This document shows positions 5,722-41,556 of a stretch of 64,000 nt of DNA, one piece after another (the first letter of the stretch is position 1; every line of letters begins with the position of its first letter). Position numbers and translations under genes: made by a program. The notes below the pieces were generated by a model. The model saw only the letters and a list, made by a program, of their open reading frames with translations, had not been told where the DNA came from and did no database searches. Source of the DNA: Vicinamibacteria bacterium (GTDB taxonomy: Bacteria > Acidobacteriota > Vicinamibacteria > Fen-336); the NCBI GenBank assembly GCA_035570235.1, contig DATMML010000085.1:62001-126000 (forward strand), read 5' to 3'.

Positions 5722-6626
5722 TCCGGCCGGGGCCGGGCGAGGGCCTGCCGCAGATGGCCCCCCGCGGCGCGGAGCCGGGCCCGCGCCTCTTTCGCGGTGC
5801 CGCCGAGCGCGCTCATGAGGATCGCGGTCTTGGCCTCGCCCCCCGCAGCCGCGAGCAAGCGCTCCGCCCGCTGCTTCGACCCTCCGGCCGCCAACTGGAC
5901 GATGCGTCGAGACCGGTCCTTGAGCTTGGCGGAGGTGGGCCGCAAGTCGACCATCAAGTTCCCGTAGACCTTGCCCAGCCGCACCATGGCCGCGGTGGTG
6001 ATGGCGTTCAGGACGGCCTTGGTGGCGGACCCGGCCTTGAGCCGCGTGGAGCCGGTCAGGACCTCGGGGCCGGTCCGGAGCGCGATCACGATCTCGGCCA
6101 GGCCGCGCGGGGCCTTCCCGGGCGCGCAGGTCAGAAGGACGGTGCGCGCTCCTCCCGCCCGCGCCCCCCGCAGGGCCCCGCGAGCGAAGGGCGTCACCGA
6201 ACTGGCGGAGATGGCGACGAGGAGGTCCCGCGGCCGCAGCCGCTTGCCCTCGCGCCGGCCCTCGCTTGCGCGGTCCTCGGCTCCTTCCACCGCCCGGAAG
6301 ACGGCCCTGCGTCCGCCCGCCATCACCGCGCGGATGCTAGCGGGTGGAGTGCCGAACGTGGGTGGGCACTCCGCGGCCTCCAGCACGCCCAGCCGCCCGC
6401 TCGTCCCCGCGCCCAAGAAGAGGAGCCGCCCGCCGGCGGCCAGGGACCGGGCCGCCGCCACCGCCGCGCGGGCGATGGCGGCCCGCTCCCGGGCCGCGGC
6501 CCGGAGGGCCCGGCGGTCCTCGTCGAGGATCAAGCCCACGATTCTCGTCGTCGACAGCGCGTCGAGGCGCCTGCTCCGGGGATTCCTAGCCTCCGTGGGG
6601 AGGCGCGACCAGGTCGCGGGCCTCAC
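5709..6626 (-). CDS. murQ: N-acetylmuramic acid 6-phosphate etherase
   Basis: A 305-residue SIS-domain enzyme that cleaves the D-lactyl ether of MurNAc-6-phosphate, giving GlcNAc-6-phosphate in cell-wall recycling. Family hallmarks are LPTEARNPRSRRLDALST at the N-terminus, GAGTSGRLGVLEAAECPPTF near residues 58-77, and the later VGSTRLKAGSATKAVLNAI-like block (here TGSTRLKAGSATKAVLNAIT). I place the start at GTG 6626, whose bases overlap the cdd stop (GTGA); the open frame extends 36 codons further, but that part is inside cdd and lacks family similarity. It is the last gene of the nucleoside operon, an unusual neighbourhood for murQ. No MurNAc kinase or PTS gene is nearby. Confidence 0.93.
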   Translation of the reverse strand: MRPATWSRLPTEARNPRSRRLDALSTTRIVGLILDEDRRALRAAARERAAIARAAVAAARSLAAGGRLLFLGAGTSGRLGVLEAAECPPTFGTPPASIRAVMAGGRRAVFRAVEGAEDRASEGRREGKRLRPRDLLVAISASSVTPFARGALRGARAGGARTVLLTCAPGKAPRGLAEIVIALRTGPEVLTGSTRLKAGSATKAVLNAITTAAMVRLGKVYGNLMVDLRPTSAKLKDRSRRIVQLAAGGSKQRAERLLAAAGGEAKTAILMSALGGTAKEARARLRAAGGHLRQALARPRPDQDP

Positions 6627-16659: not shown

Positions 16660-16736
<77 letters not shown>

Positions 16737-16756
16737 ACTCAATCATAAGAACTTAG

Positions 16757-16787
16757 GGCCCTCGAAAGACTTCATCTTTCGAGGGCC
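16757..16787 (+). terminator. Terminator of tRNA-fMet
   Basis: A perfect 13-base stem (GGCCCTCGAAAGA / TCTTTCGAGGGCC) with a five-base loop, followed by TCATTGCTTT. It is 20 bases beyond CCA. Confidence 0.85.
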
Positions 16788-38767: not shown

Positions 38768-39302
<535 letters not shown>

Positions 39303-39327
39303 TTACTAAAGTTAAGGAATGTAATCG

Positions 39328-39347
39328 GGGGCTCGAAAGGGCCCCCT
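39328..39347 (+). terminator. Hairpin after repeat copy 2
   Basis: GGGGGC / GCCCCC arms with an eight-base loop. Like the true tRNA terminator at 16757 it contains CTCGAAAG, so it may derive from a tRNA terminator carried with the repeat. Confidence 0.5.
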
Positions 39348-39608
39348 AAACGTGTCGGTGTAAGCACGGGTAAGGCTCGGACTGGCAAGCCCAGTCTGGG
39401 CTGTTGGTCAATGGACAGGACATGACTAGTGTTACAAACGTAAGATCTAGACGCGAGGTCGCTGGCGGCGCTCATTGGGTAGACTCGGAGCCGCTCCCGC
39501 GTGTCCGACATCCTTCACCTCCCGGATGTCAGACGGGACCGGTGCGAACCCTCGCTCAAGACGACTTCGCAGAGCGCTTGCACTCAACCTGATCCGCCCT
39601 CGCCGCCC
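39348..39608. other. Non-coding stretch before the VOC gene
   Basis: About 260 bases. Only short frames without motifs or ribosome sites occur, and I see nothing else. Confidence 0.45.
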
Positions 39609-40001
39609 CTAATAGCGAGCGAGCTGGGTGAGCTGAATGAGGTTGCCGCAGGTGTCGTTCACCATCGCAATGGTCGAGGCAGTCACGTCGGTGGGCGGCA
39701 TGGTGAACGCGGCGCCACGGGCCTTGATCCGCTCATAGTCGCCTTTGACGTCGTCGGTGTAAAACATCGCCGCGGGCTGGCTCTGTTGGAACATCGCCTG
39801 CTGATACGCTTTGGCTGTGGGGTTGTTATTCAGCGCCAACTGCAACTGAGTGCCGTCCGGTTCCTCGGGTGAAGCCACGGTCAGCCAGCGATACAGGCCC
39901 TGACTGAAGTCGGCCTTCTTGGCAAAGCCCAGTACCTCCGTATAGAAGCGCAGAGCCTTGTCCTGGTCGTCCACGTATATGCTGGTCAGTTTGATTTTCA
40001 T
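39609..40001 (-). CDS. VOC-family (glyoxalase/bleomycin-resistance fold) protein
   Basis: A 130-residue single VOC module: KIKLTSIYVDDQDKALRFYTEVLGF at the start, YRWLTVASPEEPDGTQLQLAL, AAMFYTDDVKGDYERIKARG and the closing DTCGNLIQLTQ. Metal-ligand positions typical of the fold (for example the late Glu) seem partly replaced (NLIQL), so a metal-independent or binding role is possible. AAGGAG precedes the ATG at 40001. It is divergent from the ECF sigma gene and lies inside the small tRNA-repeat-bounded segment. Confidence 0.88.
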   Translation of the reverse strand: MKIKLTSIYVDDQDKALRFYTEVLGFAKKADFSQGLYRWLTVASPEEPDGTQLQLALNNNPTAKAYQQAMFQQSQPAAMFYTDDVKGDYERIKARGAAFTMPPTDVTASTIAMVNDTCGNLIQLTQLARY

Positions 40002-40026: not shown

Positions 40027-40053
40027 TGTCACATCAGGCACGTCTCGTCCGTC
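40027..40053 (+). promoter_or_regulatory. ECF41-type promoter in front of the sigma factor gene
   Basis: TGTCACA at 40027-40033, a 16-base spacer, and CGTC at 40050-40053. As I recall, this is the published ECF41 signature, which suggests autoregulation. The sigma gene starts 37 bases downstream. A TATAAT-like element also lies at 40056-40061. Confidence 0.75.
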
Positions 40054-40089
40054 AGTATAATGACGGACCGCGACGGAGGAATGTGACCG

Positions 40090-40971
40090 ATGCCCACACC
40101 TGAGCGGCTCGCCGAGCAATTCGAAGAGCACCGACCGCACGTGCGGGCGGTCGCGTATCGCATGCTGGGATCGGTCAGCGAGGCGGAGGACGCCGCCCAG
40201 GAAGCCTGGATCCGATTGAGCCGCACGGATGTCAGCGGTGTCGACAACCTGCGGGCTTGGCTAACGACAGTCGTCGCGCGTGTGTGCCTGGACATGTTGC
40301 GGACGCGAACATCGCGCCGGGAGGATCCCTTGGACACGCACGTACCCGATCCGGTGATCACTCGCGCCGACAAGGATCCGGAGTCCGACGCAGTGCTTGC
40401 CGACTCTGTTGGTCTCGCGCTGCTCGTGGTCCTCGAGAAGCTGGAGCCGGCAGAACGACTGGCGTTCGTGCTCCACGATGTGTTTGGGATGACCTTCGAC
40501 GAGATCGCGCCCATCGTGGACCGCTCGGTCGTCGCAACGCGCCAGCTCGCGAGCCGCGCGCGCCGACGGGTCAAGAGCCAGACGCCGACGTCAGACACGG
40601 ATCTGCGGAAGCAGCGCCGCGTCGTCGAGGCGTTTCTCGCCGCCGCCCAAAACGGCGACTTCGAAGCGCTGGTCGCCGTGCTGGATCCGGCGATCGTGCT
40701 GCGGGCTGATGGTGGAGCGATCAAGGGCATGTCGCGCTTCGTGCGCGGGGCTCAGGCGGTCGCCGCACAGGCCGTGACGTTCTCGAAACTCGGGTTGTCC
40801 AACCTGGTGGTTCTGGTGAATGGCAACATTGGCGTCGTGTCGCGACTCCCGGACGGGCGCCTGCTTTCCGTGATCGGCTTCACGACTGCTGACGGCAAGG
40901 TCGTTGAGATGGACATCGTGGCGGATCCAGACCGGCTCAGTCGGCTCGATCTGTCGGCCATCGAGGCCTGA
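40090..40971 (+). CDS. ECF41-family RNA polymerase sigma factor with SnoaL-like C-terminal extension
   Basis: A 293-residue sigma factor. Sigma region 2 spans about 10-80 (HVRAVAYRMLGSVSEAEDAAQEAW), and region 4 about 110-165 (PAERLAFVLHDVFGMTFDEIA, ATRQLASRARRRV). The C-terminal NTF2/SnoaL-like domain has ADGGAIKG near residue 205, in place of the ECF41 DGGGK motif, and ADPDRL near 278, in place of NPDKL. In ECF41 proteins this extension modulates activity and no anti-sigma factor is needed; none is seen here. Matching promoters lie upstream of this gene and of the DoxX gene. Confidence 0.93.
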   Translation: MPTPERLAEQFEEHRPHVRAVAYRMLGSVSEAEDAAQEAWIRLSRTDVSGVDNLRAWLTTVVARVCLDMLRTRTSRREDPLDTHVPDPVITRADKDPESDAVLADSVGLALLVVLEKLEPAERLAFVLHDVFGMTFDEIAPIVDRSVVATRQLASRARRRVKSQTPTSDTDLRKQRRVVEAFLAAAQNGDFEALVAVLDPAIVLRADGGAIKGMSRFVRGAQAVAAQAVTFSKLGLSNLVVLVNGNIGVVSRLPDGRLLSVIGFTTADGKVVEMDIVADPDRLSRLDLSAIEA

Positions 40972-40983
40972 ACCGTTGTCGGT

Positions 40984-41010
40984 CGTCACATTTCTTCTGG
41001 TCGTTCCGTC
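40984..41010 (+). promoter_or_regulatory. ECF41-type promoter in front of the DoxX-like gene
   Basis: CGTCACA at 40984-40990, exactly 16 bases, then CGTC at 41007-41010. It differs by one base from the element at 40027. The DoxX-like ATG is 66 bases downstream. Confidence 0.72.
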
Positions 41011-41076: not shown

Positions 41077-41529
41077 ATGAACAAGCCAGCCACCGGGCAG
41101 ACGCTCGCCGCACCGGGACCGGCCCTCTCGCCCGCGGACCCGAGCATCCGCTCCAAAGGAATAGTCGTCGGCTACTGGATCCTCACCGCGCTCTTCTGCC
41201 TGCAGATGGGCTTCACCGCCTACGCGCAACTGCGTCTGCCGCAGGTGGCGCAGATGTTCACCCACCTCGGCTTCCCCGACTACTTCCGGGTGGAGCTCTC
41301 GTGGGCCAAGCTCCTCGGCGTCGCGCTGCTGCTGGCGCCGGTGCCGGCGCGGCTCAAGGAGTGGGCCTACGCCGGCTTCGCCATCAATCTAGCCTCGGCG
41401 CTGGTCGCCCACTTGTCGGTGGGCGATGGCCCGGAGGCCTGGAGTTGGGCGGCGGCCACCGGCGTGCTCTGGGGCCTCTCGTACGTCTTCTGGCGCCGCC
41501 TGCAGGCCACGCCGGTGCCGTTACGCTAA
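41077..41529 (+). CDS. DoxX-like integral membrane protein
   Basis: A 150-residue protein with four predicted membrane helices: GIVVGYWILTALFCLQMGF, WAKLLGVALLLAPV, EWAYAGFAINLASALVAH and AAATGVLWGLSYVFW. The FTHLGFPDYFRVELSWAKLLG loop is the DoxX-like family signature. DoxX proteins are linked to membrane redox and thiol stress. AAGGAGGCG precedes the ATG. An ECF41-type promoter lies upstream, so it is the most likely direct target of the adjacent sigma factor. Its stop is followed after six bases by repeat copy 3. Confidence 0.88.
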   Translation: MNKPATGQTLAAPGPALSPADPSIRSKGIVVGYWILTALFCLQMGFTAYAQLRLPQVAQMFTHLGFPDYFRVELSWAKLLGVALLLAPVPARLKEWAYAGFAINLASALVAHLSVGDGPEAWSWAAATGVLWGLSYVFWRRLQATPVPLR

Positions 41530-41535
41530 GCGCGG

Positions 41536-41556
41536 CAAATCCTGCCCCCGCTACCA
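41536..41556 (+). repeat. Island repeat copy 3 (tRNA-fMet 3' end)
   Basis: Twenty-one bases identical to the last 21 of tRNA-fMet (16716-16736), followed by CTTACTA as in copy 2. It marks the outer right border of the composite island or of the 39.3-41.5 kb segment. Confidence 0.82.

Follow-up and report, generated by a model that had tools for sequence, protein, structure and literature searches.

An ECF41 sigma factor cassette of probable horizontal origin with a predicted face-to-face promoter pair and two predicted, non-classical target genes

ECF41 sigma factors are widespread and control one-gene regulons. The locus described here, in a 64-kb window (the whole stretch of DNA that was analysed, from a soil member of the Acidobacteriota), raises the question of whether a gene for such a factor, lying between two genes of protein families not typical of the group, constitutes a regulatory unit of its own, and whether this unit has moved between genomes. 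On the evidence of sequence comparisons the module is probably a horizontally acquired, self-contained ECF41 cassette in which the sigma factor would drive a VOC gene, its own gene and a DoxX gene.

The central gene (40090..40971, plus strand) encodes a SigJ-like, ECF41-type sigma factor of 293 aa. Pfam matches to Sigma70_r2 (1e-15), r4_2 (7e-11) and SnoaL_2 (3e-6) bear out the original prediction of an ECF41-type C-terminal extension, a SnoaL-type tail of about 100 aa which, according to truncation assays in other ECF41 members, governs activity (PMC3426412). The protein scores 278 bits against the NCBIfam SigJ model (cut-off 271), and its closest solved relative is SigJ of Mycobacterium tuberculosis (PDB 5xe7; 5e-47), a likeness of protein alignment covering residues 9-284. 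In the linker joining sigma2 and sigma4, where the ECF41 motif is WLPEP, this protein has HVPDP, which aligns with the WLPEP of SigJ and retains both prolines; a Streptomyces relative (L024) has HVPEP. Only one full-length ECF41-type protein was detected in the genome scan, the other matches being restricted to the sigma domains (25-37% identity). No anti-sigma gene lies next to the sigma gene, whose neighbours by Pfam are VOC, DoxX_2, DinB and acyl-CoA dehydrogenase genes.

The predicted targets, whose family assignments are secure, are a VOC/glyoxalase-fold protein of 130 aa (39609..40001, minus strand; Pfam Glyoxalase, 1.6e-18) and a DoxX_2 membrane protein of 150 aa (41077..41529, plus strand; Pfam DoxX_2, 3.6e-18). 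Plausible ribosome-binding sites were read from the sequence for all three genes (AAGGAG for VOC, GGAGG for sigma and AAGGAGG for DoxX). A carboxymuconolactone decarboxylase (CMD), oxidoreductase or epimerase (COE) target gene is absent beside this sigma gene by Pfam, VOC and DoxX standing in its place; an adjacent COE gene occurs in about 60-70% of ECF41 members and is thus common, not strictly defining (PMC3426412). No paper linking ECF41 with DoxX or glyoxalase was found in the open-access literature searched.

Three predicted ECF41 promoters occur in the module. The promoter of the sigma gene (40027..40053, plus strand; TGTCACA-N16-CGTC, TGTCACATCAGGCACGTCTCGTCCGTC) would mediate autoregulation and holds the same position in most orthologous loci; that of the DoxX gene (40984..41010, plus strand; CGTCACA-N16-CGTC, CGTCACATTTCTTCTGGTCGTTCCGTC) has the same 16-nt spacer. 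Both had been pointed out in the original prediction, with their equal spacing, and were located as described; the count of two was too low, since a VOC promoter on the minus strand (40062..40088; GGTCACA-N16-CGTC) had been overlooked. For the same reason the choice of DoxX as the direct target holds as a prediction, with VOC an equally well predicted one. All three sites match the published consensus TGTCACA-N16-CGTC, which is experimentally proven in Bacillus licheniformis and Rhodobacter sphaeroides (PMC3426412). The earlier proposal was staked on the pattern recurring in orthologous loci; the promoters persist there, and it therefore survives on this point.

A chance origin of these motifs is ruled out by genome-wide counts. 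GTCACA-Nk-CGTC (k=12-20) occurs four times in the window, and the three occurrences with k=16 all fall inside the sigma module. The 5.7-Mb genome holds eight copies of GTCACA-N16-CGTC (about 12 are expected from base composition), of which three lie within a single 1-kb stretch at the module (P ~1e-9 for three within 1 kb). A wider regulon was also considered and rejected, the five remaining exact sites not exceeding the chance number: one (contig C41) falls in a convincing reading frame, as perhaps do one or two others, and at least two look intergenic. TC precedes the -10 box in 3/3 module sites and in 0/5 of the others. The sigma factor may have a few extra targets outside the module.

The promoters of the sigma and VOC genes face each other in a 62-bp inverted pair (40027..40088) of the form GTCACA-N16-CGTC-N8-GACG-N16-TGTGAC, with the -10 boxes 8 bp apart. 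In an ECF41 member of Sinorhizobium meliloti the start site lies 9 nt past the motif (PMC3616915), and in two further species the start nucleotide is G (PMC3426412). By analogy, the starts in the window are predicted at ~40062 (plus) and ~40053 (minus); because the -10 boxes are only 8 bp apart, each start would coincide with the G in the facing GACG, and the two promoters would open a nearly common bubble.

This geometry recurs far beyond the window. The ECF41 loci compared (491 kb) contain 41 pairs of opposite-strand promoters no more than 200 bp apart, and 25 of these show the same 35-bp face-to-face offset (21 as distinct sequences, a few loci having been counted twice), and the next most frequent offset is represented by two pairs. 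The 21 distinct sequences with the exact pair geometry come from Acidobacteriota, Actinomycetota and Pseudomonadota, including at least two classes of Acidobacteriota, Rhizobium plasmids, Streptomyces and Pseudonocardia, and their spacer letters differ between phyla. The -35 boxes covary between the arms, both reading GTCACA, GTCACC (L024, L025, L045) or GTTACC; the last variant accounts for two more pairs, from Nonomuraea (L026) and from a Tsukamurella plasmid with a DoxX partner (L135). This agreement argues that a single sigma factor reads both arms. Against the pattern, only a plus promoter is clear at the second sigma gene of L024 and in L025 and L088. The window's own genome has a single copy of the complete element (reversed-pattern control, none). 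It is rare at up to one mismatch, being present in 5 of 297 Acidobacteriota genomes (reversed control pattern, 0 matches); the three exact matches are the window and two ECF41-CMD pairs. The main text of PMC3426412 makes no mention of a face-to-face geometry (word search), and the fixed 62-bp arrangement is apparently undescribed in the accessible papers.

The VOC promoter overlaps the GGAGG of the sigma gene and stops 2 nt short of its ATG, so part of the conservation could be translational. Only sigma and DoxX would then be ECF41 targets, the minus-strand match would be a by-product of the sigma leader and its ribosome-binding site, and VOC would have another promoter; two loci without a recognisable plus promoter, L042 and L043, retain the minus one, which fits such an account. 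We regard it as improbable, however, because the spacer is exactly 16 and the offset exactly 35 in three phyla, because translation does not require the -35 box, TGTGAC ahead of the ATG, which covaries with the other arm, and because a divergent gene lies behind the minus site in locus after locus (L017, L019, L022, L023, L034, L077, L079-L081, L086, L131-L133 and L135). That a dimeric repressor or activator instead uses the 62-bp inverted repeat as its operator, as the near-palindromic form and fixed spacing might suggest, is very hard to credit: each arm by itself has the proven consensus and makes up a complete ECF41 promoter, a single-arm version precedes DoxX, and the cassette has no conserved regulator gene.

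The genes placed behind the facing promoters vary. VOC orthologues are divergent from sigma in L019, L077 and L023; elsewhere the divergent partner is YCII (L017, with DoxX behind; L021, L083), DoxX_2 (L022, L023, L135), CMD (L034, L078-L081, L086, L089, L131-L133) or a small membrane protein (L018, L043, L045), the calls of YCII in L021 and L083, VOC in L077 and CMD in L034 and L078-L081 being made by eye, without a profile match. The promoter and leader of the window's DoxX gene are conserved in L017, where they run into a DUF1801 gene, and the closest DoxX relative (83% aa) adjoins an ECF41 gene in L023 under a divergent promoter pair; promoters and targets have therefore recombined between loci. 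The Luteitalea locus L023 (5451-8413) contains two consecutive ECF41 genes, one with a divergent DoxX target and one with a divergent VOC target, and additional ECF41-type promoters in tandem, at 5920 and 7396.

Horizontal acquisition of the cassette is supported by comparative data, and to this extent the earlier proposal of mobility holds. The sigma proteins of the window genome and the L017 genome are 87% identical, above RpoB at 75-77%, and identity at four-fold sites is 70% for sigma and 42% for RpoB. Distribution is patchy: 10 of 396 genomes of the phylum, the window's own among them, have a sigma match at E<=1e-60, and only one of 13 other genomes of the same family has a homologue above 50%. 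The cassettes have no flanking genes in common. Phage-borne mobility was rejected as an explanation, DoxX not having been found in viral contigs.

The second part of that proposal, a portable unit targeted to tRNA genes, fared less well. An intact tRNA-Met (CAT) gene lies at 16660..16736 (plus strand; ARAGORN), and partial copies of its 3' end do flank the module as had been claimed: the 3' 45 nt at 39258..39301 (98%) and the 3' 21 nt at 41536..41556 (100%, with a further 7 nt, CTTACTA, in common with the left copy), both on the plus strand. That segment 39304-41556 (2.2 kb) is a discrete mobile unit inserting at tRNA-Met 3' ends would be compatible with the cassette mechanism, and several features speak for it: the direct repeats bracket exactly VOC, sigma and DoxX; the block preceding tRNA-Met is syntenic in three relatives (G003, G009 and G002) and what follows it is different in every one of them, which makes the tRNA a variable site; and G003 has another partial tRNA-Met end. 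Nevertheless, the contig (C85) has no match to PF00589 (Phage_integrase, tyrosine type), no tRNA ends adjoin the other cassette copies (L017-L023, L042, L043, L077 and L083, within available flanks), where the original prediction had proposed to look for them, and the blocks homologous to the window in L019 and L077 are bounded by the VOC stop and the sigma stop, not by the repeats. Since the repeats accompany the cassette in no relative and the contig lacks a tyrosine integrase, we consider the 2.2-kb unit rather doubtful. The repeats may be traces of insertion at this locus; they are not a general feature of the cassette.

Several further observations concern the surroundings of tRNA-Met. 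Between the intact gene and the 45-nt copy (16737-39257) extends an island-like 22.5-kb cluster for acyl-CoA/fatty-acid catabolism; in relatives, tRNA-Met is followed by other genes, and the acyl-CoA dehydrogenase pair lies at a different place. Similar GC-rich hairpins follow the intact tRNA-Met (16756-16786) and the 45-nt copy (39327-39349), GGGCCCTCGAAAG.. and GGGGGCTCGAAAGGGCCCCC, as if the copy had brought along part of the downstream terminator. In G003 the genes after tRNA-Met (L115, 10129-12594) resemble, by eye, three-Cys-motif partner and DUF262 defence genes, which suggests that tRNA-Met is an integration hotspot. The partial tRNA-Met 3' end of this genome, a second one of the family, is located at a contig end (contig C45; L120, 8773-8813).

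The cassette could operate as a stress switch, as follows. The SnoaL_2 tail would keep the sigma factor at low activity until its conformation is shifted by a signal, which is probably redox in nature or a small ligand; the active factor would then transcribe three units, reading VOC to the left, the sigma gene itself to the right, and DoxX further downstream. With the sigma and VOC promoters facing each other over an almost shared bubble, a holoenzyme would serve a single direction at a time, tying sigma output to target output. Promoter activity, mutual exclusion and the signal are what we infer, as is the biochemical role of the VOC and DoxX proteins, which to judge from their families is probably detoxification or redox defence. 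For the broader reading, a one-bubble bidirectional ECF41 promoter whose geometry has been selected across three phyla and whose targets are freely exchanged, as in a portable plug-in switch, we put the chances at about even.

With the characterized ECF41 systems (Ecf41Bli-YdfG and Ecf41Rsp-RSP_0606; PMC3426412) the module shares sigma2-sigma4 with a C-terminal extension, the absence of an anti-sigma gene, TGTCACA-N16-CGTC promoters, a predicted regulon confined to the adjacent gene(s) and a divergent layout, which is among the reported contexts; it differs in its predicted targets, VOC and DoxX instead of a CMD, oxidoreductase or epimerase, and in having three promoters and a fixed face-to-face geometry. 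RpoE9 of S. meliloti, also an ECF41 member (PMC6180224, PMC3616915), likewise has a single-locus regulon, with the mapped start cited above, whereas its CMD-sigma operon is co-directional and has one promoter. By its sequence features, then, the module is an ECF41 member in its core and a variant in having three predicted promoters and two predicted targets outside the classical set.

The bidirectional bacterial promoters of Warman et al. 2021 are also said to be transcribed divergently, from start sites that lie close together; reportedly they are housekeeping-type promoters with symmetric -10 sequences. The window would instead present two complete predicted alternative-sigma promoters facing each other at a fixed distance.

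For the ECF41 family, a fixed geometry combined with swappable targets would amount to a simple rule, competition between sigma and target for a single bubble; if this is true, a single holoenzyme picks between more sigma and more target. The geometry also supplies a 20-base DNA signature by which cassettes of the ECF41 type, together with their targets (VOC, DoxX, YCII, CMD), could be located without annotation, and engineers may find in the facing promoter pair a natural two-way switch of compact size.
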